NCBI RefSeq assembly: GCF_025452195.1
Contig: NZ_CP104971.1
Coordinates: 434,001-498,000 of the forward strand
Direction: 5' to 3'
From: Phyllobacterium zundukense
GTDB lineage: Bacteria > Pseudomonadota > Alphaproteobacteria > Rhizobiales > Rhizobiaceae
DNA: 64,000 bases
This document shows, one piece after another, positions 15,451 to 58,481 of the stretch. Made by a program: the position numbers and the translations under genes. Every line of letters starts with the position of its first letter. Positions within the stretch are counted from its first letter, which is position 1. Under the pieces are notes generated by a model. That model saw nothing but the letters and a program-made list of their open reading frames with translations, was not told the origin of the DNA and ran no database searches.

Positions 15451-16233
15451 CTACTTCTGTTCGCTCCAGCTCTCGGGGAACAATCCCTCACGCAACGCGC
15501 CGCGAACGTAGTAGCTCCAGAGCTTGCGAATGTGATGATCGCGGCGAAAACTGTGTGCAAATGAATCAAGCTCGGCCTCCGTCAACGGCTTCACTTTGCC
15601 GATGGCGGCAGCGCGGTAGGCCGCTTCCGCGTTCTCCACGAGATGGAGCGAATCGATGAATGCCGCGCGCACCGTTTCTGCGGTCACGATCTGGCCATGG
15701 GCACGTATCTGCATCGCATGGTGGGCGCCGAGCGTGGCGGCGACACTGCGGCCCTGTTCACTATTGCTGACGTGGGCCGGGTCTGCGTGAACGGGAATGC
15801 CGCTCCGCCAGCGTATTGCGTGATTCTTGAAGGGCAGGAGCTGCATATCTTCGACAAGCGTGAAGACATTGGTTGCATCATTGTGGAAATGCGCGATCGA
15901 TTTCACATCCGGTCGTGCACGATAAATCTCACAATGGAGGAAAACTTCTGAAGGAGGTTTGACGCCTTTCGGACCCGCTACAACCTTGCCGTCCATATCG
16001 CAGACCAGAAGATCTTCGGGTGATACTTCGGCGCGGCTTTTCTCCTGGGGCTGCACAAGCAAGGTCTCGTTTCCGGGCAGGAGGGCGCTGACATGGCCGC
16101 TGTATTCAAGTATTTTCAGGCTGTTCAGGAGCCGCGTGGCCATTGCGATTTCCGCTCGCAAGGATGTTTCCGATGGAAGCGCCGTCCCGGCCTTCCGGGG
16201 GTCCTCATCTGTCGTCCGCGCCTGAGTATCCAT
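15451..16233 (-). CDS. Class II aldolase/adducin family protein, module A
   Basis: I take ATG 16233-16231 as start (MDTQARTTDEDPRK), since GGAGG lies 4 bases upstream; an ATG three bases earlier is possible. The 260-residue protein has VFLHCEIYRARPDV, SIAHFHNDATNVF with the HxH metal pair, and RAHGQIVTAE for the third His. It matches the protein at 43481 along its whole length (SGHVSA-LP, KNHAIRW-SGIPVH-DP-HVS), so both modules carry this enzyme. Related proteins include PhtC-type aromatic decarboxylases. It stands between the ferredoxin and the bicupin genes on the same strand. Confidence 0.88.
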   Translation of the reverse strand: MDTQARTTDEDPRKAGTALPSETSLRAEIAMATRLLNSLKILEYSGHVSALLPGNETLLVQPQEKSRAEVSPEDLLVCDMDGKVVAGPKGVKPPSEVFLHCEIYRARPDVKSIAHFHNDATNVFTLVEDMQLLPFKNHAIRWRSGIPVHADPAHVSNSEQGRSVAATLGAHHAMQIRAHGQIVTAETVRAAFIDSLHLVENAEAAYRAAAIGKVKPLTEAELDSFAHSFRRDHHIRKLWSYYVRGALREGLFPESWSEQK

Positions 16234-16307
16234 CATTCCTCCCGTCATTGTGCTAATAAAAATCCCACATTATACGAATTTTGTGCGCCCGCAACATCAC
16301 ATCTGGC

Positions 16308-16839: not shown

Positions 16840-18126
16840 ATGCTTAGAAAAGAACAAAACGACCTTCTGACGCAGACTGGTCCGGCCACACCTATGGGCG
16901 ACATGTTTCGCTGCTACTGGATACCGGCGCTGCTTGCGGAAGAACTGCCGGCCAATGATTGTCCGCCGGTTCGCATAAAGCTGCTCAGCGAACGTTTGCT
17001 GGCATTCCGGGATAGCGAAGGCCGCTACGGATTGATCGACGAGTTTTGCGCCCACCGGGGTGTTTCATTGTGGTTTGGCCGTAATGAGAAGGGTGGATTG
17101 AGGTGCCCCTATCATGGCTGGAAATACGATCACACGGGACAATGTATCGAGGTGCCGTCGGAACCTAAGGAAAGCGGCTTCTGCAACAAGATCAAGCTGA
17201 AGTCCTATCCACTCATCAAGATCGGCGATATTCTCTGGACCTATATGGGACCAGCCGACAAAGAGCCGCCCCATCCGGAATGGGAATTTGCGCTTGTGCC
17301 GCCTGAGCAGACGTTCACGTCGAAGCGCTGGCAGGAGTCGAACTGGTTGCAGGCCATGGAAGGCGGCATCGACTCGAGCCACGTTTCCTTCCTTCATAGC
17401 GGAAGCTTGAATAGCGACCCGTTGTTCAAGGGTGCTCGCGGCAACAAATACAACATGGCCGACTCCAAGCCATTTTTCGAAGTCACCGACAATGAAGGCG
17501 GACTATTCATCGGCGCCCGCAGGAATGCCGAGGAAGGCCGCTACTACTGGCGTGTAACGCCATGGGTCATGCCGTCTTTCACCATGGTACCGCCGCGTGG
17601 CAACCATCCTGTCCACGGCCATTTCTGGATCCCGATCGACGACGAGAATTGCTGGGCATGGAGCTTCGACTATCATCCCGTCCGGGCGCTGACGCCCGAA
17701 GAGCGCCAGGCAATGCTCGATGGCAAGGGCATTCATGTCACATACGTTCCGGGAACCTTCCGTCCCGCCGCCAACAAGGACAATGACTATCTAATGGATC
17801 GCGAGGCTCAGCGTCTTGGCGTAACCTATTCCGGCGTCGAAGGTATCGCCATGCAGGATGCATCCTTGCAGGAAAGCATGGGACCCATCGTCGACCGGAC
17901 AAAGGAAAATCTGGTGTCGACGGACAACGGCATCATCATGGCGCGCCACCGTTTGCTGAAAGCCGTCCGGGCATTCAAGGACAAGGGCATCACGCCTCCG
18001 GGTGTCGATCCCGCTCACCACCGCGTTCGATCGGCGGCTGTCGTTTTGCCTGTCGATCAATCTTACATCGATGCAGCCGCCGAAGCGTTGACAGTGATCG
18101 AGGGAAAAGCGCCGGCCTCTGTCTGA
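16840..18126 (+). CDS. Rieske aromatic ring-hydroxylating oxygenase, alpha subunit (phthalate 4,5-dioxygenase-like)
   Basis: The 428-residue protein has the Rieske centre at Cys70-x-His72 and Cys89-x2-His92 (FCAHRG, CPYHGWKYD) and the mononuclear iron site in GGIDSSHVSFLHSG. The opening residues (EQNDLLTQTGPATPMGDMF, then YWIPALLAEELP) are those of the phthalate 4,5-dioxygenase/Pht3 group, which work without a beta subunit. None is present here, consistent with that. GAGGAGG precedes the start. Partners are the ferredoxin at 16308 and reductase at 19692. A dihydroxyphthalate-decarboxylase-like gene at 27280 supports an aromatic dicarboxylate or similar acid as substrate. Confidence 0.92.
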   Translation: MLRKEQNDLLTQTGPATPMGDMFRCYWIPALLAEELPANDCPPVRIKLLSERLLAFRDSEGRYGLIDEFCAHRGVSLWFGRNEKGGLRCPYHGWKYDHTGQCIEVPSEPKESGFCNKIKLKSYPLIKIGDILWTYMGPADKEPPHPEWEFALVPPEQTFTSKRWQESNWLQAMEGGIDSSHVSFLHSGSLNSDPLFKGARGNKYNMADSKPFFEVTDNEGGLFIGARRNAEEGRYYWRVTPWVMPSFTMVPPRGNHPVHGHFWIPIDDENCWAWSFDYHPVRALTPEERQAMLDGKGIHVTYVPGTFRPAANKDNDYLMDREAQRLGVTYSGVEGIAMQDASLQESMGPIVDRTKENLVSTDNGIIMARHRLLKAVRAFKDKGITPPGVDPAHHRVRSAAVVLPVDQSYIDAAAEALTVIEGKAPASV

Positions 18127-19670: not shown

Positions 19671-19691
19671 GCAGAAATGGGAAGCCCACGC

Positions 19692-20702
19692 ATGGCAGTC
19701 ATCACGCTGAATGGAAGAGACCTCCACTGGGAGTGTGACGAAGGCGACACGATCATGCGATCGGCACTACGGGCGGGATTGGGCTTTCCCTATGAGTGCA
19801 ATGTCGGTTCATGCGGCAATTGCCGCTTCGATCTCCTTGAAGGAGAAATCGAAGAGCTGCGTACTGATCCGCCGGGCTTGAGCGAACGGGATCGCGCGCG
19901 CGGCCGCCGCCTGGGCTGCCAGGCGAGCCCTTTGTCCGATTGCGCCGTCAAGCTGCGACTGATGCCGCAGTATGAGAGCCTTTTCAGGCCGCAACGCCAG
20001 GCTGCGACCTTGGTTGCGACGTCCGACATCACGCATGACATCCGGGAGTTTCGCTTCCGCTCAGAGGCAACGAGCCGTTTCCTTTCGGGTCAATATGCTT
20101 TGCTGCACCTGCCCGGAATACCGGGTGGTCGCGCCTATTCCATGGCGAATATCAGCAATGATGATGGGGAATGGCACTTTCAGATACGCCGCGTGCCAGG
20201 CGGCGAGGCGACGGGATATTTGTTTTCGCAACTGCGCCTGGGGGATAGGATCGAGCTCGATGGCCCCTATGGCATGGCATATCTTCGCGAGAACTCGCCG
20301 AGAGATATCGTTTGTATTGCCGGTGGTTCGGGCCTGTCGCCGATGGTGTCGATCACGCGCGCGGCGGCTGTTGCGCCAAGCCTTGCCGGAAGACGTATAG
20401 ACTTCGTCTTCGGCGGGCGCACGGCGCAGGATATTTGCGGCAAGGAAATGCTGCAAATGCTTCCGGGATTTGGTACAAATATTCACTACCATCCAGTTGT
20501 TTCCGGCATGCCTGAAGCCGATGATGGCTGGGATGGTTACAGAGGCTATGTGCATGAAGTGGCGCACAGTCTTTTCGCCGCACGGCTTCCTTCGTGCGAG
20601 ATCTATTTTGCAGGTCCCCCCGCAATGGGACAAGCAATACAGAAAATGTTGGTCGACCTCGGCGTCGACTCAACCCAAGTGCATTTTGACCAGTTCTATT
20701 GA
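19692..20702 (+). CDS. NAD(P)H:ferredoxin reductase with N-terminal plant-type [2Fe-2S] domain
   Basis: The 336-residue flavoprotein begins with a plant-type ferredoxin domain whose cluster ligands are Cys36, Cys41, Cys44 and Cys76 (YECNVGSCGNC, LGCQASP). The FAD domain has GRAYSMANIS and the NAD domain IVCIAGGSGLSPMVSI and FAGPPAMGQAIQKML. This is the domain order of BenC/XylZ-type reductases. The start ATG 19692 gives the usual family N-terminus MAVITLNGRD; ATG 19677 is also possible. It should pass electrons from NAD(P)H to the Rieske ferredoxin or directly to the oxygenase. Confidence 0.92.
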   Translation: MAVITLNGRDLHWECDEGDTIMRSALRAGLGFPYECNVGSCGNCRFDLLEGEIEELRTDPPGLSERDRARGRRLGCQASPLSDCAVKLRLMPQYESLFRPQRQAATLVATSDITHDIREFRFRSEATSRFLSGQYALLHLPGIPGGRAYSMANISNDDGEWHFQIRRVPGGEATGYLFSQLRLGDRIELDGPYGMAYLRENSPRDIVCIAGGSGLSPMVSITRAAAVAPSLAGRRIDFVFGGRTAQDICGKEMLQMLPGFGTNIHYHPVVSGMPEADDGWDGYRGYVHEVAHSLFAARLPSCEIYFAGPPAMGQAIQKMLVDLGVDSTQVHFDQFY

Positions 20703-23910: not shown

Positions 23911-24588
23911 TCAAACTCCTTCGCAACCGAGGCGCTTTAGGCTTTCGTCGACCCAAAGTTTGGGATCGAGCTTGCCCGCAAGCGTAGTGGCCACTGTTTT
24001 CAATTCCGCTTCATGCTTGGCTTTTGCCAGCGGATAGATTTCGCCAGTCAGTTCGTATGGAACACAAAGCAGTCCGTCATCATCGCCCATGATCAGATCG
24101 CCCGGATTGATGACCATACCGTCGAGCGAGATCGGAGCGTTGATTTCGCCCGGACCGTCCTTGTAGGGGCCGCGATGCGTGATGCCTGCGGCAAACACCG
24201 GAAAGCTGTTGTTCCTGATCCAGCCATAGTCGCGAACGGCGCCATTTATCACAACGCCGGCAACGCCGATCTGCCTGGCGTGCGAAAGCATCATCTCGCC
24301 GACAAGTGCATTCGACAATTCTCCGCCGGCATCGACGACGATCACGTCGCCCCGCTTTGCCATCAGCAGCGCCTTGTGAATCATCAGATTGTCGCCGGGC
24401 CGGGTCTTGACCGTGAAAGCCGGTCCCGCCAAAGGCCCGCCTGCGTGCAACGGGCGGAGATTCGGTCCGCCCGCGGTCAGCCGTGACATGACATCGCTGA
24501 CATTGGCCACGGGCAGCTCGCGAAACTGCCTGACTGTCTCGTCGTCAACCCTGCGCGTTCGTTCGAGAATTCGAAATCCATGTGCCAT
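23911..24588 (-). CDS. RraA-family aldolase, probable 4-carboxy-4-hydroxy-2-oxoadipate (CHA/HMG) aldolase
   Basis: The 225-residue protein belongs to the RraA-like fold, which includes class II HMG/CHA aldolases of the protocatechuate 4,5-cleavage pathway and the RNase E inhibitor RraA. The residues needed for catalysis in the aldolases are kept: GDVIVVDAGGELSNALVGEMM and the R-D pair in INGAVRDYGWI. The LigJ-like hydratase at 26198 makes the substrate for such an aldolase, so pathway context favours aldolase over RNase regulation. Products would be pyruvate and oxaloacetate. The gene is translationally close to the hydrolase gene (2-base gap). Confidence 0.85.
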   Translation of the reverse strand: MAHGFRILERTRRVDDETVRQFRELPVANVSDVMSRLTAGGPNLRPLHAGGPLAGPAFTVKTRPGDNLMIHKALLMAKRGDVIVVDAGGELSNALVGEMMLSHARQIGVAGVVINGAVRDYGWIRNNSFPVFAAGITHRGPYKDGPGEINAPISLDGMVINPGDLIMGDDDGLLCVPYELTGEIYPLAKAKHEAELKTVATTLAGKLDPKLWVDESLKRLGCEGV

Positions 24589-26197: not shown

Positions 26198-27247
26198 TCA
26201 TCTCAGTTTGCCGGGCTTGGCGGGATGCCCGCGTTTCGTCAGCTGTGCGTCAAGGCGCGGATAGACCCGGCGCGCATTGCCTTCGAAAATCTTGTGGCGG
26301 CTTGGCTCGTCCAATGTCGCAAGCTGGTCGATATAGCGCTTGGTGTCGTCATAGTAATGACCGGTTTCCGGGTCGATGCCTTTAACCGCGCCCAGCATCT
26401 CCGAGGCGAATAATATGTTGTCGACCGGGATGACCTTGGCCATCAGTTCGATGCCCGGATAATGGTAGACACATGTGTCGAAGAAGACGTTCTTCAAAAG
26501 ATGGTCGGCAAGCAGCGGTTTCTTCATCTCCTGCGCAAGACCGCGATATCGGCCCCAATGGAAGGGTACTGCGCCGCCTCCATGGGGTATGACGAATTTC
26601 AGCGTCGGAAAATCTTTGAAAAGATCGCCCTGAATGAGCTGCATGAAGGCTGTCGTATCGCCGTTGATGTAGTGCGCGCCCGTGTGGTGGAAGTTCGGGT
26701 TGCACGATGAAGTCACGTGGATCATCGCTGGTACGTCGAGTTCGCACAGCTTTTCGTAGAGCGGATACCATTGAGGATCGGTCAGCGGCGGATCCGTCCA
26801 GTAACCGCCGGACGGGTCGGGATTGAGATTAACGCCGATGAATCCGAGCTCGCTAACGAGACGCTCAAGTTCCGGAATGCAATTCTTCGGAGGAGATCCG
26901 GGATGCTGCGGCAATTGACCGACAGCAGCAAAATTATCGGGGAGCAGTTGGCAGATCCGGTAGATCAAATCATTGGAAAGTGTTGTCCACTGCATGCTTA
27001 CAGCTTCGGTTCCCACATGGTGTGCCATGCCCGCGGCGCGCGGCGAAAAGATCGTGAGGTCACTGCCACGTTCGCGTTGCAACTTGAGTTGCGGCTCGAC
27101 GGACTGGCGCAGCATGTCATCGGTGATCCCGAGATCCGTGCTCGTCGGGCGCCGCATGGGATCAGCGAGGCCAGCCAGCTGCTTGTCCCGGAACTGATGC
27201 AGTGCCTGGGGTTCCGTGGTGTAGTGGCCGTGAATATCGATGATCAT
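26198..27247 (-). CDS. ligJ: Amidohydrolase-2 family protein, probable 4-oxalomesaconate hydratase (LigJ-like)
   Basis: The 349-residue protein resembles Sphingobium LigJ from end to end. The HxH metal pair is His6 and His8 (MIIDIHGHY); SPRAAGMAHHVG, GFIGVNLNPDPSGGYW, DVPAMIHVTSSCNPN, FVIPHGGGAVPFHWGRYRGL, FFDTCVYHYPGIELM and FASEMLGAVKGIDPETGHY are all LigJ-type motifs. LigJ adds water to 4-oxalomesaconate in the protocatechuate/gallate 4,5-cleavage route. It lies 32 bases after the decarboxylase-like gene and likely shares its GTTC-N9-GAAC promoter. The RraA-type aldolase at 23911 would be the next step. Confidence 0.85.
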   Translation of the reverse strand: MIIDIHGHYTTEPQALHQFRDKQLAGLADPMRRPTSTDLGITDDMLRQSVEPQLKLQRERGSDLTIFSPRAAGMAHHVGTEAVSMQWTTLSNDLIYRICQLLPDNFAAVGQLPQHPGSPPKNCIPELERLVSELGFIGVNLNPDPSGGYWTDPPLTDPQWYPLYEKLCELDVPAMIHVTSSCNPNFHHTGAHYINGDTTAFMQLIQGDLFKDFPTLKFVIPHGGGAVPFHWGRYRGLAQEMKKPLLADHLLKNVFFDTCVYHYPGIELMAKVIPVDNILFASEMLGAVKGIDPETGHYYDDTKRYIDQLATLDEPSRHKIFEGNARRVYPRLDAQLTKRGHPAKPGKLR

Positions 27248-27279: not shown

Positions 27280-28140
27280 TCAGATTTTCCAGAAAAGCTC
27301 ATCGACTTCGTAGGGTCGTGAACTGAGCCTTTGGTCGAAAGCATAGTCGAGCAGCGTCTGCATTGGCTTGCGAGTCGCTTCCAGTCCGTAGGGCAAAGCA
27401 GCTGTCCCCTTTGCACCGGATTTCACCCGCGCCTCTTCAAAGAGCGCCATCAGTTCACCGCCAAGCCAGGGATGCCGTTCGAGAAGTTCTTTCCTGACGG
27501 AAACGATGTGGTTCACCGGGAGTATTCCCGTCTTCTCGGACCACTTCAGCGCTGCATCTTCTGCATTCCGTATGACAGGGCGCACGTCGGCGGGATCGAC
27601 GTTGCGTTCACCCATGATTGCCGCAAGTTCACCCGACAGCAGGAGTTCGCGCAGACCCTTGCCGCTGTTGCGGACCGCATTTTCCGGATCCTTGTATTCG
27701 GCAACATGGGCATCTTCCATGGTCACCCACGTGATGCGATTGAGGTCCACACCATATTCCGATTTGAGAATCCCGCGAATCCAGACGCCCGTGGTCTGCG
27801 TATAGGCGCGCACGCCAACCTTCTTGCCTTGAAGTTCGGCCGGATCGCCGAGGTCAGATCCTGCCGCGCAAACCAGATTGTCGTGATGCAACCTGCGCCA
27901 AAGTGGAATGGGAAGCGCTGTAATGGGTTTGCCCAAGTCGACGGCAACCAGATGCGTGGTCAGAGCCATTTCGCTCACATCGAGATCCCCGCCCCGAACC
28001 ATGGTTCGAAATGCCTTCGGCAGGGGATCAAACTCCTGAAACACCAGTTTGAGACGGGGTGACGTTACGCTGCCATCCTTGAGCGGCCGCACGTGATCGT
28101 GCTTGCCGAGGGCTGTGCGTAACACCAGTGGTTCGACCAT
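27280..28140 (-). CDS. 4,5-dihydroxyphthalate decarboxylase-like protein
   Basis: Start ATG 28140-28138 follows GGAGG; 286 residues, no signal peptide. It resembles Pht5/OphC-type 4,5-dihydroxyphthalate decarboxylases, which have a periplasmic-binding-protein-like fold: LALGKHDHVRP-like N-terminus, AFRTMVRGGDLDVSEMALT, LQGKKVGVRAYTQTTGVWIR and ILKSEYGVDLNRITWV. The lack of a leader supports an enzyme in place of a transporter component. With the phthalate-dioxygenase-like oxygenase it would yield protocatechuate. A GTTC-N9-GAAC operator lies 37 bases upstream of the start. Confidence 0.8.
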   Translation of the reverse strand: MVEPLVLRTALGKHDHVRPLKDGSVTSPRLKLVFQEFDPLPKAFRTMVRGGDLDVSEMALTTHLVAVDLGKPITALPIPLWRRLHHDNLVCAAGSDLGDPAELQGKKVGVRAYTQTTGVWIRGILKSEYGVDLNRITWVTMEDAHVAEYKDPENAVRNSGKGLRELLLSGELAAIMGERNVDPADVRPVIRNAEDAALKWSEKTGILPVNHIVSVRKELLERHPWLGGELMALFEEARVKSGAKGTAALPYGLEATRKPMQTLLDYAFDQRLSSRPYEVDELFWKI

Positions 28141-28176
28141 TTCTGCCTCCTCCCACAGCTTCAACGAAGATGGTAT

Positions 28177-28796: not shown

Positions 28797-29376
28797 GCTT
28801 TTTGTCCCTGCTCGACAGGTAGGACACCAGTACGCTGGGCGGAATGCTTGCGAAGACGACGGGAACGAGCGGCCAGCGCAACACGCCAACCATGATAAAC
28901 ACGGCTAGCGCGATGAGAATGGGTAACGTCTGTCCATGCAGTCGCCGCGCCGTCTTCATCCCCATCGTCAGCGTCGATGCTATGCCGACGCAGGCAAGTC
29001 CCCGCAGAACCGAATGCGTCTCGGGATACGCACTCAATTGCCGGTAAACCGTGCTCAACAGGATGATGACGGCGAAAGCCGGCGCCACCATTGCGAATGT
29101 GGCAATGATGGCGCCTGGGAGGCCGCGCAGTTTGAGCCCAATATAGACGGCGAGATTTACCGGGTTGGCTCCCGGCAGTATCTGGGCGATGGTTTGTGTC
29201 TGCAGGAAATTCTCATCGGTCATCCAGCCGCGCCGCTCGACAATCTCGCGATACGTCCAGGCTGCCATGCCTCCGCCAAAGGAGGAAGCACCGAGTTTGA
29301 GAAAGGACATGAGCAAGGATCCGAGCGATGCACGCGGCTCCTCTGGTGGGTTCGATGCGTCGACGCGTTGTTCCAA
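28789..29376 (-). CDS. chrA: Chromate transporter, N-terminal-type half (CHR family)
   Basis: I place the start at TTG 29376, preceded by GGGGAGA seven bases upstream; no ATG with a ribosome-binding site is available, and ATG further in would cut the first helix. The 195-residue product has the CHR motif FLKLGASSFGGGMAAWTYRE and IAQILPGANPVNLAVYIG. It is coupled by overlap to the second half-gene. No chrB regulator is next to the pair. Confidence 0.85.
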   Translation of the reverse strand: MEQRVDASNPPEEPRASLGSLLMSFLKLGASSFGGGMAAWTYREIVERRGWMTDENFLQTQTIAQILPGANPVNLAVYIGLKLRGLPGAIIATFAMVAPAFAVIILLSTVYRQLSAYPETHSVLRGLACVGIASTLTMGMKTARRLHGQTLPILIALAVFIMVGVLRWPLVPVVFASIPPSVLVSYLSSRDKKHG

Positions 29377-29849
29377 AAAATCTTCTCCCCGCAGCAAGGC
29401 CAGTTGCCACTCGATCTCGCCTGATAAGCTGAAGTGGCGAGGGCGCCGATGACAATGATTGGAATTTTTGTAGCCGTGATGCCGGGGCACACAGACCTAT
29501 AAAATCACATAAAAACGTTGCCGTTAATGCAGAGGAAGTCCACGCTATTTCGCCTTAACGGCAAACTAAGAAAAACTTAGTGCGATGTGATTTCCCGTTA
29601 TCTTCCGCGCGGGCGGCGACAAACTCGCCAGCTAAGCCGCTGTGCCAGCCCACACAAAAACAACTGGTCTGAGCGTAATATTTTGCTTTGGACAAAATGC
29701 ATCGGATTGACCCTAATTGGAGGGCCGCTGCCGTTTTAGCCAGCGCAATAACTGTGCATGCGCCGTGCTCGTGGAGGAGCTTAGCAGCAATTGCATGACG
29801 GATCGCAATCCGGGATTGCCGTTCGTTGGATGGGAGGATTGATACTGTA
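29377..29849. promoter_or_regulatory. Long intergenic region with a LysR-type T-N11-A palindrome
   Basis: No convincing gene is present in these 473 bases. ACTAAG-AAAAA-CTTAGT at 29565-29581 is a perfect inverted repeat and fits the LysR consensus T-N11-A. It lies about 270 bases upstream of the TTT permease start, so it may be the upstream site for the LysR protein encoded at 38618. The rest holds nothing I can name. Confidence 0.45.
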
Positions 29850-31361
29850 ATGATCGACACTATGTTTGCCGCGCTCTACGGCCTAGTGAGCTCGCCCCAC
29901 ATAATGGGCCTCATGCTGATAGCCGTCATTTTCGGATTGCTGGTCGGTGTCACGCCCGGTATCGGCGGGAAGCTTTCCATCGCAATGGCCATTCCATTCG
30001 TCTACGGCATGGACAAGGTGTCAGGAGCGGTATTCCTGCTGACGATGCACGCCGTCAACGGCACCAGCGGCCAGATATCCAGTATCATGTTCGGTATACC
30101 CGGTGACGGTGACGATGCCGCGACGACCCTCGACGGATATCCTCTGGCCAAGCAGGGGCAGGCGGCGCGGGCACTTGGTGCCAGCATCACCGCATCCGGC
30201 GTCGGAGGTATCATCGGAGCGATCGTATTCGCCATCATGATACCTGTTCTAGAGCCGGTCATTCTCATGTTCAGTCCTGCTGAGTTCTTCTTGATTGCCC
30301 TACTGGGCATCAGCTTCATTGCGTTTCTCTCCAGCGGCAAGAAGATCGTCAAAGGCCTGATCGTCGGCTTTTACGGCTTGATGCTGGCTACGATTGGCAT
30401 GGACCCGATCACAGGTACACCGCGCTATGCCGGCGACATGCTATTCCTTTGGGACGGTGTCAGTCTCGTCACCGCCGTACTCGCTCTTTTTGCAGTGCCG
30501 GAAATGATCGCGCTCAGCACCAAGGGCGGAGCCATCTCGGCGGTGCCCATGGATAAGGGTTTCAACTATCAGCAATTGCTTTCGGGTGTCATGGAAGTGC
30601 CGCGCCATTGGTGGCTCGTCCTGCGCACCTCGGTGATCGGCGCTGTGATCGGCATGATTCCGGGCCTTGGGGGTTCGACTGCTGCCTGGCTCTGCTATGG
30701 CCATGCGGTACAGAGCTCGAAGACACCCGAGCGCTTCGGCAAGGGAGCTATTGAAGGTGTTATCGCGCCTGAGACCGCAAGTAACGGCAAGGAAGGCGGC
30801 TCGCTGCTGCCGACCCTCTTCTTCGGTATTCCCGGAAGTTCCGGAATGGCCGTGCTGCTCGGCGCGTTCCTCATTCTCGGCATTCAGCCGGGCGCGACGA
30901 TGGTCACCCAACACCTTGAGCTTGTCTGGACGCTGATATGGGCATTGGTCGTCGGCAATCTGATTGCGGTTGGCATCCTGCTCGTCGTCTGCCGCTGGGT
31001 TGCGGTGCTCACCTTCGTCAATGGCCGCTATCTGGTGCCGTTCATTCTGGTCTTCGTGTCGCTCGGCTGCTTCGTTAGTGACTATCAGTGGCAAAATCTC
31101 ATCATCCTCGTGCTGTTCAGCGCGATTGGTTATGGCTTCCTTCGGGCAGGCTGGCCACGCTCGCCTTTCGTGATCGGTCTCGTTCTCGGGGGAAAAGCCG
31201 AAGCGTCACTCAATCAGGCACTGCAGCTCTGGGGCTACAGTTTCTTCCTGCGTCCCATCTCGCTTGTCCTGATCGCCATGATCGTTGGACTGATGGTCTA
31301 TGCGTTCTACCGCAATTTCAGGCCGCATCGTGCCAATTCAAGCGTTGGAGTGAACCTATGA
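29850..31361 (+). CDS. Tripartite tricarboxylate transporter large permease, TctA family (system 1)
   Basis: The 503-residue inner-membrane protein has about eleven hydrophobic segments and the TctA signatures FGLLVGVTPGIGGKLSIAMA near the N-terminus and IGMIPGLGGSTAAWLCYGHA in the middle, then KGAIEGVIAPETASNGKEGG. ATG 29850 is used; GGGAGG is 12 bases upstream, which is long. Its stop overlaps the TctB start (ATGA). With TctB and the binding protein downstream it forms a sodium- or proton-driven carboxylate importer, probably for the substrate of module B. Confidence 0.93.
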   Translation: MIDTMFAALYGLVSSPHIMGLMLIAVIFGLLVGVTPGIGGKLSIAMAIPFVYGMDKVSGAVFLLTMHAVNGTSGQISSIMFGIPGDGDDAATTLDGYPLAKQGQAARALGASITASGVGGIIGAIVFAIMIPVLEPVILMFSPAEFFLIALLGISFIAFLSSGKKIVKGLIVGFYGLMLATIGMDPITGTPRYAGDMLFLWDGVSLVTAVLALFAVPEMIALSTKGGAISAVPMDKGFNYQQLLSGVMEVPRHWWLVLRTSVIGAVIGMIPGLGGSTAAWLCYGHAVQSSKTPERFGKGAIEGVIAPETASNGKEGGSLLPTLFFGIPGSSGMAVLLGAFLILGIQPGATMVTQHLELVWTLIWALVVGNLIAVGILLVVCRWVAVLTFVNGRYLVPFILVFVSLGCFVSDYQWQNLIILVLFSAIGYGFLRAGWPRSPFVIGLVLGGKAEASLNQALQLWGYSFFLRPISLVLIAMIVGLMVYAFYRNFRPHRANSSVGVNL

Positions 31362-31942: not shown

Positions 31943-32947
31943 ATGATGAAACAATCAATTCGCACGGCAGTTTTTGGTGCCGTCCTGATCGCCGGGCTCG
32001 GGTCCGCGCTAGCGCGGGCGGACGAGGCCGCCGACTTCTACAAGGGTAAAACTGTGACCTATATCGTCGCGACGGCCCCCGGCGGCGGTTACGATACGAA
32101 CGGCCGTCTTGTCACGGAGTTCATGCAGAAACACCTGCCGGGATCGACGTTCGTCGTACAGAACATGCCGGGCGCCGGCCACCTGATCGGCACAAACTAT
32201 ATCTATGCTTCCGACCCGGACGGTCTGACCTTCGGTACTTTCAACACCGGCCTTATCTACGGTCAGCTGGCGGGCGATCCTGGCATCAAGTTCGACCTGA
32301 CCAAAATGTCCTGGATCGGCAAGGTATCCTCCGATCCGCGCGTCATCGTGGTTTCGAAGGATTCCGGCATCACGAGTTTCGATCAGCTGAAAAACCTGAA
32401 GGAGCCGATAAAGTTTGCGGCCGCCGGTGTCGGCAGCGCGTCGACGATCGAAACGACGATGCTGGTCAAGTCGATCGGCCTGCCGATCCAGGTCATCACC
32501 GGCTACAATGGCAATGAAGATCAGCTGGCGATGCGCCGCGGCGAAGTCCAGGGCATCGTTGGCTCGCGCTCGACGTTCCAGCAGTTCGTCGATGACGGAA
32601 ATGGCAAGTTCATCGCGCAGATCGGCGGTTCCGAGACCGATGTTCCACAGCTTGCCTCGATGGTTACGAGCGAGGAGGGCAAGAAGGCCATCGCGCTGGT
32701 TGAATCCCAGAGCGATATTTCGCGATTGACGGCGGGACCTGCAGGCATTCCAGCCGATCGGCTGAAGGTGCTGCGCGACGCCTATGCGGCCGCAACGTCC
32801 GATCCCGAGTTTATCGCCAAAGCCAAGACGCTCGGCCTGCCGCTTGATCCGCTTATCGGCGACGCCGTGGGCGACTCCGTGAAAACGGCCATGGATCAGA
32901 CGCCGGAGATCGTGCAGTTCCTCAAGGATTCGCTCAAGCCGGAATAG
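31943..32947 (+). CDS. Tripartite tricarboxylate transporter binding protein, TctC/Bug family (system 1)
   Basis: The 334-residue periplasmic protein has a signal peptide (MMKQSIRTAVFGAVLIAGLG ending at ALARA) and the Bug-fold features FYKGKTVTYIVATAPGGGYD, FVVQNMPGAGHLIGTNYIY and IKFAAAGVGSASTIE. Bug proteins bind carboxylates with the conserved water-mediated loops found in these segments. A start at 31946 is equally possible. A stem-loop follows the stop. Confidence 0.92.
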   Translation: MMKQSIRTAVFGAVLIAGLGSALARADEAADFYKGKTVTYIVATAPGGGYDTNGRLVTEFMQKHLPGSTFVVQNMPGAGHLIGTNYIYASDPDGLTFGTFNTGLIYGQLAGDPGIKFDLTKMSWIGKVSSDPRVIVVSKDSGITSFDQLKNLKEPIKFAAAGVGSASTIETTMLVKSIGLPIQVITGYNGNEDQLAMRRGEVQGIVGSRSTFQQFVDDGNGKFIAQIGGSETDVPQLASMVTSEEGKKAIALVESQSDISRLTAGPAGIPADRLKVLRDAYAAATSDPEFIAKAKTLGLPLDPLIGDAVGDSVKTAMDQTPEIVQFLKDSLKPE

Positions 32948-32967
32948 CAGAGCTTTCTGCCTGCTTG

Positions 32968-32993
32968 GGGCGACCGGACCACCCTGGTCGCCC
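32968..32993 (+). terminator. Stem-loop after the first TctC gene
   Basis: GGGCGACC (32968-32975) and GGTCGCCC (32986-32993) form a perfect 8-base stem, loop 10 bases, followed by TGAATTTT. It lies between transporter and ThDP enzyme genes and probably lets the binding protein be expressed above downstream genes. Confidence 0.65.
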
Positions 32994-33024
32994 TGAATTT
33001 TGCTCAACTGTACAAGGACTGAAG

Positions 33025-34803
33025 ATGGATAGCTCGGCGCCGACAGCATCAGTGACACAGAATGACGGACTCGGGTGGCAATCCGATATTATCGCTGACC
33101 TGATCAAGCAATACGGGTTTCCCTTCATAACGCTCAATCCTGGTGCCAGCTATCGCGGGCTGCATGACTCACTCGTCAATCACAATGGCGATGAGCCGCC
33201 AATGCTGCTTTGCCAGCACGAAAAGATCGCCGTCCAGATTGCGCATGGCTATGCGAAAGCGTCGGGCCAGCCTTTGGCTGTCATTGTACACAATGTCGTC
33301 GGTCTCCTGCACGCCACCATGGGCATCTACTACGCCTACACGGATCGTGCTCCGGTCTTTGTTATCGGCGCAACCGGACCGATGGACGAGGGCAAGCGGC
33401 GGCCCCGGGTCGATTGGGCCCATACGGCGAACGTTCAGGGAACGCAGATCCGCGACTACGTGAAATGGGATTATCAGCCGGGCGGCATGGGCGGCGTTGT
33501 GGACAGTTTTGCCCGTGCTTACTCGATCATGATGACAGAGCCGCAAGGCCCGATCTACATGTGCTATGACGCCGCCTTGCAGGAGGCGCCGCTATCCGAA
33601 CCGATTGCGCTGTCATCGCTGACATCCACAAAAACGCCGAGCCGGATCGCCCCCGATCCTGCCGCACTTGAAGAGGCTGCAGACCGCTTGATCGCAGCGG
33701 ATTGGCCTGTGCTGGTGCCGCAATTCGTCGGTCGCGACAAGAACGGCTATTCGGACATGGTTGCTCTTGCGGAAACGTTGGGCGCCCCCGTCGCCGACAC
33801 ACAATGGCGGCTTAATTTTCCAACCGGGCATCCACTCGACATGCGGATGAACCGGGACGTATTCAAACAAGCCGATTTGATAACGCTGCTCGACTGCCGG
33901 GATTGGGAGCGGCCGACGCACGAAAACGATCGTATAAATCGCACGTTGAAGCCGCTTTTTCCGGAGCATTGCGAATGGCTGGATATCGGTTTTGCCGATA
34001 TCGAGATTTCGAAATGGGCGACCGACTATCAGCGGTTTCCCGAATGCGCGCAACGCGTGCTCGCCGATACGGCGCTCGCCCTGCCTGCACTGACATCGAT
34101 CATTGGCAAGCGTGCCAAGGACGACGCGAAACTTGCCCGGAAGATTACGGAGCGCGGGCAGGCCGTTGCTGAAATGCATGACGCGCAGCGTGCAAAATGG
34201 CGCGAACAGGCAAAGGTCGATTGGGATGCAAGCCCGATCACTTTGCCCCGGCTCGCCACCGAAGTATGGAACAAGATCCAGCATGAGGATTGGGTTTTAA
34301 CGACCAACGCATTCGAGGACTGGGCGTTGAAGCTCTGGGATTTCGACCGGCCCTACCGTTGGCCCGGCAAGGCGCTCGGGACGGGAACACAGATCGGCAT
34401 GGCGACAGGCGTGGCGCTTGCCCATCGCGGCACCGGACGTCTCGTTGTCGATTGCCAGACCGATGGCGATTTGCTGTTTGACGTCGGCGCTCTTTGGTTT
34501 GCGGCAAAACACAAAGTGCCGTTCCTCTGTGTCATGCACAATAACCGCGCCTATTACAACGATTGGGAGCACCAGATCACCGTGGCGCGCCAGCGCGGAA
34601 CGCCCGTCGAACGCGCCTATATCGGCATGGATATCATGGATCCGGCCCCGGACTTTTCCACTATCGCGCGTGGGTTTGGCTGGTACGCCGAAGGTCCGAT
34701 CGAAGATGCCAAGGATATCGCCAGCGCGCTCGACCGGGCGATAGCGCAGGTCAAGAGGGGCGTTCCAGCGCTCATCGACATCATCACTCAACATGCCGGG
34801 TGA
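33025..34803 (+). CDS. Thiamine diphosphate-dependent enzyme (acetolactate synthase/benzoylformate decarboxylase superfamily)
   Basis: Start ATG 33025 with AAGGACT upstream; 592 residues. The N-terminal PYR domain keeps the cofactor-activating Glu in LLCQHEKIAVQIAHGYAKASG. The C-terminal PP domain has CQTDGDLLFDVGALWFAA followed by MHNNRAYYNDWEHQI, the GDG...NN magnesium motif. Central domain 200-330 is typical. It is not a close match to known acetolactate synthases, and its operon (TTT importer, hydroxyacid dehydrogenase, bicupin, EutA-like protein) suggests decarboxylation of a 2-oxo acid in a specialised route. Product unknown. Confidence 0.88.
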   Translation: MDSSAPTASVTQNDGLGWQSDIIADLIKQYGFPFITLNPGASYRGLHDSLVNHNGDEPPMLLCQHEKIAVQIAHGYAKASGQPLAVIVHNVVGLLHATMGIYYAYTDRAPVFVIGATGPMDEGKRRPRVDWAHTANVQGTQIRDYVKWDYQPGGMGGVVDSFARAYSIMMTEPQGPIYMCYDAALQEAPLSEPIALSSLTSTKTPSRIAPDPAALEEAADRLIAADWPVLVPQFVGRDKNGYSDMVALAETLGAPVADTQWRLNFPTGHPLDMRMNRDVFKQADLITLLDCRDWERPTHENDRINRTLKPLFPEHCEWLDIGFADIEISKWATDYQRFPECAQRVLADTALALPALTSIIGKRAKDDAKLARKITERGQAVAEMHDAQRAKWREQAKVDWDASPITLPRLATEVWNKIQHEDWVLTTNAFEDWALKLWDFDRPYRWPGKALGTGTQIGMATGVALAHRGTGRLVVDCQTDGDLLFDVGALWFAAKHKVPFLCVMHNNRAYYNDWEHQITVARQRGTPVERAYIGMDIMDPAPDFSTIARGFGWYAEGPIEDAKDIASALDRAIAQVKRGVPALIDIITQHAG

Positions 34804-34836
34804 ACCGATGAAATATCGACTTATGTGGAGGCAGAC

Positions 34837-35697
34837 ATGAAGGTTGGAGTCGTGGGAGTTGGAGAGATGGGGCTGGCTATGGCGGGCCACATACTCGACC
34901 ATGACATCGAAGTCGCTGTCTTCGACGTCGACCAGGAAAAGCTCGGACAGGCTCGCGAGCGCGGCCTCGCAACGAAGGAAAGCCTCGCTCAACTGGCCGA
35001 AGTGGCGGATGTGTTTGTTCTCGTTGTGGCGACGGACCAGCAGGTGATCGATGTTTCGCTGGAGCTGGCCGAAAAGGCCGCCGACGGAGCCAACATCGTC
35101 GTTGCCGCCACCATAAGCCCCGAGACGATGCTCGAGCTCGGACCTCAGGTCGAAGCCAGGGGCAAGCGGCTCGTTGACGCGCCAGTCGTCTACGGCGCTT
35201 CAGGTGCGCGTGAGGGTACGCTGCTTTCGCTGTGCGGCGGTTCGGAAGAAGATATCGAGCGCATCCGGCCGGTCTTGATGAGCTACAGCCGCGACCTTAT
35301 TCACGTCGGGCCACGCGGAGCCGGGCAGATCGCCAAATCCTGCAACAATCTGTTGCATTGGGTTCATTGCGTGGCCAACTTCGAGACGCTGTTGATCGCC
35401 AAGCGTTACGGGATCGATGCACAGCGAATGCGCGAAGTCCTCCTGCAATGCCCGGGAACCAACGGTACCCTCAGCCGGTGGGACAGCACGCGCTTCACCT
35501 GGCAGGAAAAGGATATGGATGTGACGCTGGACCTTGCCCAGAAGGGTGGCCTGATGCTGCCGCTTTCCGGACAAGTCGACCAGATCATCAAGACGTTGCA
35601 TGCCGATGACGTCAAGGCTCTGCTGTATGGGCCGGAGGCAAGCTATCTCGGCAGGGTGGTTCGACCGTTGTCCTCGTCTGAAGGCGGGGTTGGTTGA
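34837..35697 (+). CDS. NAD(P)-dependent beta-hydroxyacid dehydrogenase (3-hydroxyisobutyrate dehydrogenase family)
   Basis: Start ATG 34837 follows GGAGG; 286 residues. The Rossmann motif is MKVGVVGVGEMGLAMAGHIL, the substrate loop VYGASGAREGTLLSLCGG and the catalytic Lys lies in GAGQIAKSCNNLLHWVH. This is the standard order of the family. It lies between the ThDP enzyme and the bicupin B gene. It could reduce an aldehyde made by the ThDP enzyme, or oxidise a hydroxy acid. Confidence 0.9.
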   Translation: MKVGVVGVGEMGLAMAGHILDHDIEVAVFDVDQEKLGQARERGLATKESLAQLAEVADVFVLVVATDQQVIDVSLELAEKAADGANIVVAATISPETMLELGPQVEARGKRLVDAPVVYGASGAREGTLLSLCGGSEEDIERIRPVLMSYSRDLIHVGPRGAGQIAKSCNNLLHWVHCVANFETLLIAKRYGIDAQRMREVLLQCPGTNGTLSRWDSTRFTWQEKDMDVTLDLAQKGGLMLPLSGQVDQIIKTLHADDVKALLYGPEASYLGRVVRPLSSSEGGVG

Positions 35698-35794: not shown

Positions 35795-37024
35795 ATGGCG
35801 ACCAGTGCTGAAAAAGCGACGACATTTGGTTCCGAACCCGTTGCGGTTCAGGATCCGGACAATTCGAAATTTCTGGTAGACCCTTACAAGGATTGGTCGA
35901 CGGGAGAAGGCATCCCTATCCATTTCGATTTTGGTCACGACCTGCTCGAGCTCGAGACAGGGCCTTGGGATCGATACGACGCTCGCGGTTGTTTTGCACA
36001 CACTGTGGGTATGGGCGATTTCATGGCCAATTATGTCATCGAGGTCTTGCCTGGCCGCAAGACCAGCCCCGTCAAGCACCTCTATGAAGCATTCTTCTTC
36101 GTGCTCGCCGGATATGGTTCGACGACCGTCTGGCTGCCGAATGGCGAAGTCCGCACCTTCGAATGGGGACCGAAGGCGCTGTTTGCCATACCGCTGAACT
36201 GCACCTACCAGATACACAATGGATCGGGGCGCGAACCGGTGCGGCTGTCCTGCACCAATGATGCTCCGCTGAGCATCAATCTTTATCACAATCTGGATTT
36301 CATCTTCAAAAACGATTTCGCGTTTCCGGAAAGAAGCGGGCAGTCGAAGCACTTCGAAGGTGAGGGCGTGCTCTATTCCTACGGGACCGAGTCAGCCCGC
36401 AAGATCCAGAACGTCTGGGAAACCAATTTCGTCCATGACCTCACCAGCTTCAAGCTTTACGAGTTCGAAGGACGAGGCAAGGGATCGCTCAACGTCAACT
36501 TCGTGCTTGCCGATGGCACCATGCATGCCCACGTGTCGCAGATGCCCGTGGGCCGCTACAAGAAGGCACACCGGCATGCCGCCGGTACGCACGTTCATGC
36601 GGTCGATGGCACGGGCTATTCGCTGCTCTGGTACGAGGGCGAGTCGGAGTTCAAGGAATTCCCGTGGAAGCACGGGTTCATGTATACGCCACCATTCTGG
36701 ATGTATCATCAGCACTTCAACACGGGACCTGAACCAGCGCGCTATGTTGCGTGCAGCCTGGGGAGCCGGCGTTATCCGTTCATATCCCTGCGGCGGAAAA
36801 GTGCTGAGGGCAAGGGCGCAACATCTGTGAAGGACGGCGGACGCCAGATCGAGTACGAGGATCAGGATCCACGCGTACATCGCAAATTCCTGGAGGCGCT
36901 CAAGGAGACGGGCGTGCCTTCTGCCATGGGCGACACTTTCGATGAAGCCGCAGTATTGGCGCTGCCCAAGGAATCGCTGACAGGCGTCATCCAGACCCCC
37001 GTTCTGGTGGGACCGGCCATCTAG
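35795..37024 (+). CDS. Bicupin protein, copy B, putative metal-dependent enzyme
   Basis: 409 residues from ATG 35795. Cupin 1 shows SPVKHLYEAFFFVLAGYGST and ALFAIPLNCTYQIHNGSG; cupin 2 shows GRYKKAHRHAAGTHVHAVDG and WMYHQHFNTGPEPARYVA. These line up with copy A at 14054 (KHMYEEIYIVVEGRGST, GRYSKAHAHTSAAILICLKG, WYHQHFSVSKEPF). The His-rich second cupin (HRHAAGTHVHA) is the more likely metal site. In cupin 1 the usual second Glu of KHLYEA is followed by Ala where copy A has Glu. Reaction unknown; it may be a dioxygenase or isomerase. Confidence 0.8.
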   Translation: MATSAEKATTFGSEPVAVQDPDNSKFLVDPYKDWSTGEGIPIHFDFGHDLLELETGPWDRYDARGCFAHTVGMGDFMANYVIEVLPGRKTSPVKHLYEAFFFVLAGYGSTTVWLPNGEVRTFEWGPKALFAIPLNCTYQIHNGSGREPVRLSCTNDAPLSINLYHNLDFIFKNDFAFPERSGQSKHFEGEGVLYSYGTESARKIQNVWETNFVHDLTSFKLYEFEGRGKGSLNVNFVLADGTMHAHVSQMPVGRYKKAHRHAAGTHVHAVDGTGYSLLWYEGESEFKEFPWKHGFMYTPPFWMYHQHFNTGPEPARYVACSLGSRRYPFISLRRKSAEGKGATSVKDGGRQIEYEDQDPRVHRKFLEALKETGVPSAMGDTFDEAAVLALPKESLTGVIQTPVLVGPAI

Positions 37025-37035
37025 TTCTTCGTTGA

Positions 37036-37063
37036 GGAAGTCGCGCTGCCCGGCGCGACTTCC
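37036..37063 (+). terminator. Perfect 11-base hairpin between bicupin B and EutA-like B genes
   Basis: Arms GGAAGTCGCGC (37036-37046) and GCGCGACTTCC (37053-37063) pair fully around loop TGCCCG. It fills most of the 67-base gap. No T-run of note follows (ATTGTAATT), so it can reduce read-through or protect the upstream mRNA end, giving more bicupin than EutA-like protein. Confidence 0.65.
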
Positions 37064-37091
37064 ATTGTAATTCGTATAGCAGGAGAAATGC

Positions 37092-38597
37092 GTGCACGAT
37101 TTTGATCTGGACCATGAGCACGAGGATTTATCGGAATCCGATCAGCTGGCGATTTCGCGGGCGATCTGGGAACAGGAAAACCTCGAGCTTCTCACCGTCG
37201 GTATCGATATCGGCAGCTCCACCTCGCACCTGCTGTTTGCCCGTATCGTTCTGCAGCGGGAGAAGGATGATCTGTCGAGCCGGTTTGTGGTTGTCGAACG
37301 CACTGTTCTTTGGCGCTCGCCCATTCTCCTCACGCCCTTCCTGCCGGACGGCACGATCGATGCCCATGAGCTTCGCCATTTCTTCCACCATTGCTATCAC
37401 GATGCCGGCTACAAGCGAGCCGATGTCGATTCAGGCGCTGTTATTCTCACAGGCGAGGCCATAAAACGAACGAACGCCCGCGCGATCGACGAAATATTCG
37501 CAAATGAATCAGGCAAATTCGTCTGCGCGACTGCCGGCCACAAACTTGAATCCATCCTGGCGGCACATGGGTCGGGCGCGACAGCCCTTTCGAGAAAACG
37601 GGATGCTTGCGGCCTTCACGTCGATATTGGAGGCGGCACGACCAAACTTGCGCTCATCGACAAGGGGGAAATTCTCGGCGTTGCCGCTTTCGCCGTCGGC
37701 GGACGTTTGCTGGCAAAAGACCAGCATGGAAAATGGTCTCGCATCGACGAGTCGGCAAGGATCGTCGCGCAATCGCTCGGTATAGAGATTTCCGGTGATG
37801 AATTGCCCGATGAAGCGGCTCGCCAAGGCATCACGAAGCGGCTCGCAGCGCTTGCGGTCGATCAGATTTTGGGAGAGCCGCTTGACGATCTCGGCGAGAA
37901 ATTGCTGCTGACCGATGCGCTGGAGAGGCATGTCGCCCCGACTTACATCACCTTCTCGGGCGGCGTCTCCGAATATATTTTTGGCCATGAGACCGAGGAT
38001 CACGGAGACATCGCGCAAACACTCGCACAGGAGATCGTGGCGCAGCTTGGCCCGCGCATCGACGTGCCGGTTATCGATGCAGGGCAACGCATCAGAGCAA
38101 CGGTCATTGGAGCATCGCAGTTCACCGTTCAGGTCAGCGGCAAGACGCTCTATATGAGCGGCATCAAGGCACTGCCTGCTCATAACATTCCCGTCGTTCA
38201 CCTCGGGACCAGCTTGCCCGAAGTCATCGACGCCGATGAGATCGCAAGCATTTTCAAGGCAAGTGCTGAACGTCAGGATCGGGATCTGTTACTACCCCTG
38301 GCACTGGCATTCTCGTGGAGCGGATTGCCGGACTATCCGCGGCTATTGGCCATGGCCACCGCCATCAAGTCGGTAGCGGCACCGGCAGGTCAGCGCGAGG
38401 AACTGCTTGTGCTGGTGATCGACGGCGATATCGGGCAGACGATCGGCCGCATTCTCGAGAAAGAACTCGATCTTGGATCAAACCTGGTTTCCATCGACGG
38501 GGTGCAGCTCAAGGATCTGGATTTTGTCGATCTCGGCGAATTCATCGACCCGCCCGGTGTGATTCCGGTCGTCATCAAGTCGTTGCTCTTCTCATGA
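37092..38597 (+). CDS. EutA-like actin-fold ATPase, copy B (orphan reactivating factor)
   Basis: GTG 37092, preceded by AGGAGA, gives 501 residues. Phosphate loop 1 is LTVGIDIGSSTSHLLFARIV, phosphate loop 2 LHVDIGGGTTKLALI, nucleotide loop ITFSGGVSEYIFG, and the C-terminus VVIKSLLFS resembles the EutA end. The N-terminus is rich in Asp, Glu and His. It is similar to copy A at 12521 throughout, and both follow a bicupin. No eutBC or B12-dependent lyase gene is in the window. Role presumably in activation or repair of a partner enzyme; the partner is unproven. Confidence 0.86.
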   Translation: MHDFDLDHEHEDLSESDQLAISRAIWEQENLELLTVGIDIGSSTSHLLFARIVLQREKDDLSSRFVVVERTVLWRSPILLTPFLPDGTIDAHELRHFFHHCYHDAGYKRADVDSGAVILTGEAIKRTNARAIDEIFANESGKFVCATAGHKLESILAAHGSGATALSRKRDACGLHVDIGGGTTKLALIDKGEILGVAAFAVGGRLLAKDQHGKWSRIDESARIVAQSLGIEISGDELPDEAARQGITKRLAALAVDQILGEPLDDLGEKLLLTDALERHVAPTYITFSGGVSEYIFGHETEDHGDIAQTLAQEIVAQLGPRIDVPVIDAGQRIRATVIGASQFTVQVSGKTLYMSGIKALPAHNIPVVHLGTSLPEVIDADEIASIFKASAERQDRDLLLPLALAFSWSGLPDYPRLLAMATAIKSVAAPAGQREELLVLVIDGDIGQTIGRILEKELDLGSNLVSIDGVQLKDLDFVDLGEFIDPPGVIPVVIKSLLFS

Positions 38598-38617: not shown

Positions 38618-39613
38618 ATGGCAAAGGTCCAGGAACCGAACCAGTCTGCTGGTGCCGCCCGGTCAAGTTTCGATGGGCTGGACCTCAATGACATCGTCAT
38701 ATTCACACGCGTCGTTCAGTATGGCAGCTTCACCGAAGCGGCAAAGATATTCGCAAAGTCGCCGTCCTATATGAGCAAACACGTTACCCAGCTCGAAAAT
38801 TCTCTGGCCCTGACACTGCTGCACCGCTCGACGCACAAGGTGTTTCTCACCGATGCTGGCAGTGTGCTGTTCGACCATTGCGTCCGGATACTCGCCGAAC
38901 TCGATGCAGCCAAGGCAGATGCCAGCGGGCTCAGCAGTGAACTGATCGGAAATCTCAGGATACACACGACACCGGGGGTAGGGCAGGGGCTGGTCGTCCC
39001 GGCCATCATCGATTTCAATACTGAATTCCCGGCCGTGAAAGTGGAACTTACCGTCAGTGTCAATTCGGTGAGCCTCATGGAGCGAGGCGTGGACGTCGTC
39101 GTCGGCAGCCGTCATTTCGAAGATGATGTGTCTTTTCACAGTGGCCTTTTCGAACGCAAACTCGGTCCTGCTCCCTATGCCATTTGTGCGGCGCCGGGTT
39201 ATTTTGCGCGCCATGGAATGCCGAATCACCCGCACGATCTTCAAAACCACAATTGCCTTGTCCATATGACGCAGAAACGAGATCCCAAGATCTGGCAAAT
39301 CAGATCAGATGGCGAGGATGTCGCCGTTCCCGTCGATGGAACGTTTCATTCCAACCTGGAGGGCGCGATTTTGCTCGCAGCGGTTGAAGGGGCCGGCATC
39401 GTGCGCCTGCCACTTTATAGCGTTGCTGCTGAAATCCAGTCGGGGCAACTGGTTCCGATCTTCGACGGAGATGTCGCTTCTGATCGGGTGATCAAGGCAT
39501 TCTATCCGAAAAGCCGGTTCGTGCCAAAGAAGGTACGCGCATTCCTGGCCATTCTGGAAACCAAGTTGAACACGCGCATGCAGGATTGTGAGAAATCGAG
39601 CGTCGCCATTTAG
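38618..39613 (+). CDS. LysR-family transcriptional regulator of module B
   Basis: 331 residues with the LysR DNA-binding domain starting near residue 24 (LDLNDIVIFTRVVQYGSFTE, PSYMSKHVTQLENSLALTLL, HRSTHKVFLTDAG) and an effector domain with RIHTTPGVGQGLVVPAIIDF. The branch resembles DsdC/AaeR-like regulators of acid catabolism. It is the last gene of the plus-strand operon of module B, so it may control the upstream genes; a T-N11-A palindrome at 29565 is a candidate target. Confidence 0.92.
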   Translation: MAKVQEPNQSAGAARSSFDGLDLNDIVIFTRVVQYGSFTEAAKIFAKSPSYMSKHVTQLENSLALTLLHRSTHKVFLTDAGSVLFDHCVRILAELDAAKADASGLSSELIGNLRIHTTPGVGQGLVVPAIIDFNTEFPAVKVELTVSVNSVSLMERGVDVVVGSRHFEDDVSFHSGLFERKLGPAPYAICAAPGYFARHGMPNHPHDLQNHNCLVHMTQKRDPKIWQIRSDGEDVAVPVDGTFHSNLEGAILLAAVEGAGIVRLPLYSVAAEIQSGQLVPIFDGDVASDRVIKAFYPKSRFVPKKVRAFLAILETKLNTRMQDCEKSSVAI

Positions 39614-46587: not shown

Positions 46588-46590
46588 TGT

Positions 46591-47367: not shown

Positions 47368-47381
47368 CAACGCGTTCCTTC

Positions 47382-49508: not shown

Positions 49509-49523
49509 CACCGGAGGATTCGA

Positions 49524-58471: not shown

Positions 58472-58481
58472 AGGAACCGGT

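Follow-up and report, generated by a model that had tools for sequence, protein, structure and literature searches.

Why should a genome in which no ethanolamine ammonia-lyase is found carry two full-length homologues of EutA, the ATPase named after its role as reactivating factor of that enzyme, and why should each of them lie beside a gene for a two-cupin protein (bicupin)? We addressed this question starting from a 64,000-nucleotide stretch of Phyllobacterium zundukense (the window), for which a sequence-only reading had described a bicupin and EutA-like pair (copy B), recurring as a second pair in the same order (copy A), and had proposed that the two proteins work together.

Two paralogous bicupin-EutA pairs

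The two pairs consist of the following genes.

35795..37024, + strand: bicupin B, 409 residues from the ATG at 35795 (open reading frame from 35786); Pfam Cupin_2, E = 1.2e-07
37092..38597, + strand: EutA-like B, ASKHA ATPase family, 501 residues, GTG start, N-terminal tag HDFDLDHEHE directly after the start residue
14054..15292, - strand: bicupin A, about 412 residues; the open reading frame reaches 15409 and the start was set at 15292 from 412-residue homologues; N-terminal tag MHQDPLGGGTGTHWHE
12521..14041, - strand: EutA-like A, ASKHA ATPase family, 506 residues; His tag absent

Open reading frames and Pfam matches bear out the description of copy B as a bicupin of 409 residues followed, after an intergenic gap of 67 bases, by an EutA-like gene. 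Both EutA-like proteins match Pfam EutA (PF06277; gathering cut-off 27, full length), with 352.5 bits for B (5.3e-105) and 382.8 bits for A (3.3e-114). The gene order is identical in the two copies, which lie on opposite strands with the bicupin upstream of EutA, and the claimed likeness along their length corresponds in pairwise alignments to 30% identity between the bicupins (375 residues) and 39% between the EutA-like proteins (488 residues); the two class II aldolases of the window share 56% (236 residues). By sequence, copies A and B are old paralogues. A search of the whole genome (6.41 Mb, five contigs) recovered two full-length EutA genes, both inside the window, and a third, short match outside it. 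The closest named relatives at the locus are P. trifolii and Phyllobacterium sp. KW56, with 97% EutA identity.

Bicupin and EutA adjoin across distant bacteria

EutA relatives were recruited by EutA similarity alone, giving 18 stretches from seven genomes of the class and 80 named contigs (the best 80 of 535), that is, 98 loci which together with the window make 99 stretches with 108 EutA-type genes; L038 and L041 repeat contigs already in the set under other identifiers, and G481 enters it twice. Adjacency was counted from six-frame HMM matches, because the greedy ORF calling used for gene-family clustering had put some reading frames on the wrong strand in GC-rich DNA. A bicupin was found no more than 400 bp from 88 of the 108 EutA genes, and a mono-cupin within that distance of two, leaving 18 with neither. 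Among these 18, seven have a mono-cupin at 766-778 bp, one a bicupin at 1.3 kb, two a bicupin at 6.8-7.4 kb and eight no cupin; four of the 18 sit within 30 bases of a stretch end (L090, L100, L105, L129). Neither a bicupin (0/20) nor an EutA (0/20) was found in 20 control stretches, a small set taken from three of the genomes with taxa not matched. The pairing is far above chance. Named hosts belong to the Alpha-, Beta-, Gamma- and Deltaproteobacteria, the Actinobacteria and the Chloroflexi including SAR202. Over 77 distinct pairs the median gap is 93 bp, and the order is variable, with the bicupin upstream in 44 and downstream in 33.

A strict one-to-one pair is not the whole story, since bicupins outnumber EutAs in some genomes, for example G113 (15 bicupin matches and two full-length EutAs). 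Together with the rows of two to four bicupins that precede one EutA in L040, L107, L111 and L117, this excess suggests that a single EutA may serve several bicupins. The G113 genome (contig C17) measures 2.4 Mb, and several of its 15 matches are in tandem. In P0258, a database protein of 784 residues, a B-like bicupin (38% identity to B) and an A-type bicupin (76% identity to A) share one reading frame, which may reflect either a true gene fusion or faulty assembly of a single contig.

The adjacency could reflect a common pathway only, the EutA-like protein serving another enzyme, such as the prenyl-FMN enzyme UbiD or an unlinked cobalamin enzyme. UbiD occurs in 18 of the 99 stretches, and was called directly upstream of EutA in L034, L079, L108 and a marine Rhodospirillaceae-type group. 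We consider this improbable, as those 18 stretches compare with 88 of 108 EutAs adjoined by a bicupin, the UbiD group retains a small HxH cupin beside EutA or one gene away, and partner trees agree within genomes (see below). In seven stretches of the marine group (L041, L043, L109, L112, L113, L116 and L131) UbiD, EutA, the permease NicO and the small HxH mono-cupin are consecutive, the bicupin being replaced.

Partner trees are largely congruent

The sequence-only reading had suggested comparing the trees of the two partners, in which congruence would support co-evolution as a unit and discordance an independent assembly of the pairs. Over the 77 distinct pairs, partner tree distances correlate with r = 0.77 (no higher than 0.23 in 999 permutations); the EutA and bicupin trees have 42 of 74 splits in common, against 0.2 expected. 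A common species history alone could yield such a correlation, so partners were shuffled only among paralogues within a genome. For the 26 pairs of 12 multi-copy genomes, r was 0.91, whereas shuffles averaged 0.27 and none of 2000 was as high; when the within-genome shuffle was applied over all 77 pairs, 2 of 2000 reached the observed r. Nevertheless, congruence is incomplete: 13 of 51 well-supported EutA splits clash with a well-supported bicupin split, and in only 17 of 26 pairs do both partners have the same closest relative in another genome. Independent assembly of the pairs was not seen. Adjacency and agreeing trees strongly support the proposal that bicupin and ATPase work together, and the pair is very probably a genuine, old, co-evolving unit.

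In the EutA tree (n = 91), the 11 A-type EutAs form a clade with support 1.0. The 86 EutAs that are not of the EutB type (77 paired, nine not) stand apart from Escherichia coli EutA and four EutB-type EutAs, with a support for this split of 0.84 as printed after re-rooting; a fifth EutB-type stretch, L163, had no frame with the search motif and is not in the tree.

An accessory neighbourhood suited to aromatic-acid catabolism

The genes around the two pairs are listed below.

11415..12512, + strand: NicO nickel/cobalt permease, convergent to EutA-like A
15451..16248, - strand: class II aldolase/decarboxylase family protein A, accessory
16840..18126, + strand: Rieske oxygenase, C-terminal domain LigXa-like; L135 and L137 also have one close to the A pair
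19677..20702, + strand: ferredoxin/FAD/NAD reductase, likely partner of the Rieske oxygenase
23911..24588, - strand: RraA-like protein, scoring 137.8 bits with the model of 4-carboxy-4-hydroxy-2-oxoadipate aldolase, whose cut-off is 179
26198..27247, - strand: Amidohydrolase_2 family protein
27280..28164, - strand: product that we take to resemble 4,5-dihydroxyphthalate decarboxylases; no Pfam match; family in 35 of 99 stretches
29826..31361, + strand: TctA, tripartite tricarboxylate transporter
31943..32947, + strand: TctC periplasmic receptor
32965..34803, + strand: ThDP-dependent enzyme
34825..35697, + strand: hydroxyisobutyrate-dehydrogenase-family oxidoreductase
38618..39613, + strand: LysR regulator, directly 3' of EutA-like B; same position in L052-L054 and L057
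43481..44239, + strand: class II aldolase/decarboxylase family protein B, accessory

At least one of Rieske oxygenase, UbiD, a Pht5-like protein and class II aldolase occurs in 55 of the 99 stretches and in 1 of the 20 control stretches, the small, taxonomically unmatched set described above. The predicted functions of the neighbourhood suit aromatic-acid catabolism via ring cleavage. The system is present in three of the 247 genomes of the host's family, and the island is thus accessory.

The assignment of different partners to the two copies in the sequence-only reading (an oxygenase for A; a ThDP enzyme and transporter for B) gives a wrong impression. A single cluster holds both pairs in G481, with an EutA-to-EutA span of about 29 kb and neighbours largely as in the window (Rieske oxygenase and reductase, dihydroxyphthalate-decarboxylase-like, RraA-like and amidohydrolase proteins, tripartite transporter, ChrA and oxidoreductase); the ThDP enzyme had no match in that cluster. 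Tandem pairs in the order bicB-eutB-bicA-eutA occur in L055 and L056, while L070 has adjacent A-type and B-type bicupins with one EutA, arrangements which suggest that A and B may contribute to a single route. The class II aldolase, which that reading had placed with the pair in a recurring three-gene set, does not hold as a third core gene, as it was found in only 14 of the 99 stretches and had no match in the 20 kb surrounding the G351 A pair.

The aldolase bears on another interpretation, in which the EutA-like protein would be a small-molecule kinase and form, with a cupin isomerase and the aldolase, a sugar-acid pathway of the isomerase-kinase-aldolase type. Many ASKHA proteins are kinases, sugar phosphates are frequent substrates of class II aldolases, and the window itself holds a 3-oxo-tetronate/threonate set at 45307-50192 (kinase, isomerase, L-threonate dehydrogenase and decarboxylase, all four scoring over their NCBIfam cut-offs). 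We regard this pathway as quite improbable.

Nickel or cobalt supply was considered as the main clue to function and demoted to a lead: the window, L064 and the marine Rhodospirillaceae-type group each have NicO near EutA, but the permease is present in 223 of the 247 family genomes and had no match in the G481 and G351 stretches around the EutAs. The betaproteobacterial L064 (505-3780) has EutA, a class II aldolase with 51% identity to window positions 8983-9666, NicO and ChrA genes in a row that resembles the A side of the window. Beside cluster B, a ChrA-type transporter pair (28257-29490) is found in 12 of 99 stretches including related loci, where a chromate role is not obvious. The interval between the Rieske oxygenase and an IclR regulator encodes a 173-residue protein with no Pfam match (18162-18683), and 54931-63554 resembles by eye a nitrate-assimilation locus (regulator, two substrate-binding proteins, ABC transporter, nitrite reductase and the start of a nitrate reductase).

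The pair-type EutAs are distinct from EutA of ethanolamine ammonia-lyase

Ethanolamine catabolism can be ruled out, as a genome search returned no EutB. In a phylum sample of 378 genomes (EutA at E<=1e-30, bicupin at E<=1e-20), EutA occurs in six: five have EutB directly adjacent and no bicupin, and the sixth is the present genome, with two bicupins and no EutB. All other genomes of the sample are devoid of bicupins at this threshold; EutB is present in 70 of the 378 and is common without such an EutA. Conversely, bicupins were found in all ten searched genomes with a pair-type EutA (58 matches including fragments), and EutB in one of the nine others than the present genome, on a different contig.

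Both EutA-like proteins are full-length homologues of E. coli EutA (34-35% identity) and keep the shared positions G-D-G...T, D-GGGT, SGGV-E and RAT-GA, which we take to be the ASKHA nucleotide-binding (ATP-site) motifs. They differ from it in having a bicupin as neighbour, and from EutB-type EutAs also in the His tag on the EutA-like protein or its partner and in their separate place in the tree. The NCBIfam EutA equivalog model scores at best 317.5 (A) and 295.1 (B), below its cut-off of 598, and the scores of three other NCBIfam EutA models are also below cut-off. Among the 50 matches listed by fold comparison, EutJ is present, and there is no diol-dehydratase reactivase or EutA chain. Among the 120 matches listed from a capped 8000 scored candidates, a list that does not set pair-type EutAs apart from true EutA, many are named ethanolamine ammonia-lyase reactivating factor; for this subfamily the name is probably wrong, because the genome has no ethanolamine lyase. 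Activator ATPases of 2-hydroxyacyl-CoA dehydratases and benzoyl-CoA-type reductases transfer electrons through a [4Fe-4S] cluster; unlike these, the EutA-like proteins have no invariant cysteine (alignments A1 and A3), Cys145 being nearly invariant in A3.

An invariant three-histidine site in the C-terminal cupin

Bicupin B has a two-cupin fold resembling gentisate/salicylate 1,2-dioxygenases, to which its sequence similarity is distant only and with which it shares the motif HRH...HxHxN. To our knowledge, no ATPase is linked to those enzymes. Three histidines of the C-terminal cupin (H259, H261, H305), joined in bicupin B by H307, are present in 57 of 57 sequences, and the site aligns with the C-terminal motif of 3bu7. 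At the matching positions of the N-terminal cupin (93/95/138), the full set of three histidines is found in none of the 57 sequences and a His/Glu/His alternative in 12. The three-histidine set is that of gentisate/salicylate dioxygenases, where it holds Fe(II). In contrast, the invariant site of the bicupin is C-terminal, while in gentisate/salicylate-type bicupins, following the part of PMC10306065 drawn on here, the functional site is usually in the N-terminal cupin, with one two-site exception.

These features suggest that the bicupin cleaves aromatic rings as a dioxygenase of the gentisate/salicylate 1,2-dioxygenase type and depends on a metal, most likely Fe(II). It is unlikely, although the EutA partnership would stand, that the protein is instead a metal-dependent decarboxylase, hydratase or isomerase: Glu is not among the commonest residues at positions 264-266 of the C-terminal cupin (the motif 1 Glu site), and the three invariant histidines agree with the dioxygenases when set against the cupin metal-ligand sets given in that part of the source (PMC10306065).

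A histidine-rich tag on one partner and a proposed metal exchange

A first tag pattern (HxH followed by D/E within the first 35 residues) occurs in 109 of the 120 listed homologues of EutA-like B, in none of the 120 listed homologues of bicupin B, and in 115 of the bicupin A homologues listed, where it typically reads MPHD..THWHEP; elsewhere in the same proteins it matched one of 3685 windows. In the 77 pairs this pattern is on EutA in 36, on the bicupin in nine, on both in none and on neither in 32. A widened pattern (start, then H, D/E/Q, HxH), broadened after inspection of the data, marks EutA in 58 pairs and the bicupin in nine, never both partners, and neither of them in ten, so that exactly one partner is tagged in 67 of 77 pairs; it matched 3 of 1325 other ORFs. 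All nine bicupin-tagged pairs belong to the A clade, which has ten pairs; in the remaining one (L045) neither partner is tagged. Eight of the ten unmatched pairs have, by eye and with unsure start codons, another His-rich stretch ahead of the EutA core. The tag is absent from E. coli EutA and the four EutB-type EutAs.

His-rich tails are known from the nickel metallochaperone systems HypB, UreE/UreG and CooC/CooJ, which likewise combine an NTPase and a His-rich terminal tail, here putative in function, for one metalloenzyme; those proteins are P-loop NTPases or non-NTPase carriers, while the EutA-like protein is an ASKHA ATPase. The clearest pointer to mechanism is a putative metal-holding tail borne by a single partner: it would deliver metal to the three-histidine site, ATP being spent to open that site. 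We give even chances to the reading that the pair is one functional unit within an accessory aromatic-acid catabolic island, the ATPase loading or reactivating the metal centre of the bicupin. From the pair, its co-evolution, the conserved site, the ATP-site motifs and the exclusively placed tag, we infer the following steps. The bicupin would be a dioxygenase holding its metal, most likely Fe(II), in the C-terminal cupin; the EutA-like protein, its dedicated ATP-driven partner, would bind the inactive form and spend ATP on opening the site, where a damaged or wrong metal would be exchanged; and the metal to be transferred would be held by the N-terminal tail rich in His, Asp and Glu, which belongs to EutA in B-like pairs and to the bicupin in those of the A clade. 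The scheme is modelled on EutA and ethanolamine ammonia-lyase, with a metal in place of cobalamin.

The part of PMC5821096 consulted describes canonical EutA as releasing a bound damaged cofactor, which would also fit a reactivase that frees the bicupin of a tight inhibitor or oxidised product instead of a metal, with the tag serving for docking and not as a metal relay. A tag on one partner only suits docking as well; however, its HD..HxHE composition resembles metal binding, and HD and HxH are kept while the residues between the histidines vary. We regard this alternative as quite unlikely, and metal transfer stays our preferred reading. Its broadest form, a widespread class of ring-cleaving cupins dependent on their own ASKHA ATPase to swap the metal, with a His-rich tail, borne by either partner according to lineage, handing it over, we put forward tentatively, as rather less than an even prospect. 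If true, cupin oxygenases would gain their first ATP-driven reactivase, one that extends from soil Rhizobiales to marine Chloroflexi. The pair provides an experimentally testable explanation of how Fe(II) or other metal centres in ring-cleaving cupins are loaded or repaired. It also points to a large group of seemingly uncharacterised aromatic-acid pathways, found in soil bacteria as well as in marine lineages believed to oxidise recalcitrant organic matter.

No description of an EutA-cupin pair was found in the literature, judged by titles and the first part of abstracts. For SAR202, the portions of PMC6123686 and PMC6946804 at hand name ring-cleaving or ring-hydroxylating dioxygenases, and the word EutA does not occur in them. 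The tag is also carried by SAR202 EutAs with no cupin found nearby (L120, and twice in L126), and a partial tag by the marine EutAs that precede NicO and a mono-cupin (MDVHDLGFEH in L043).
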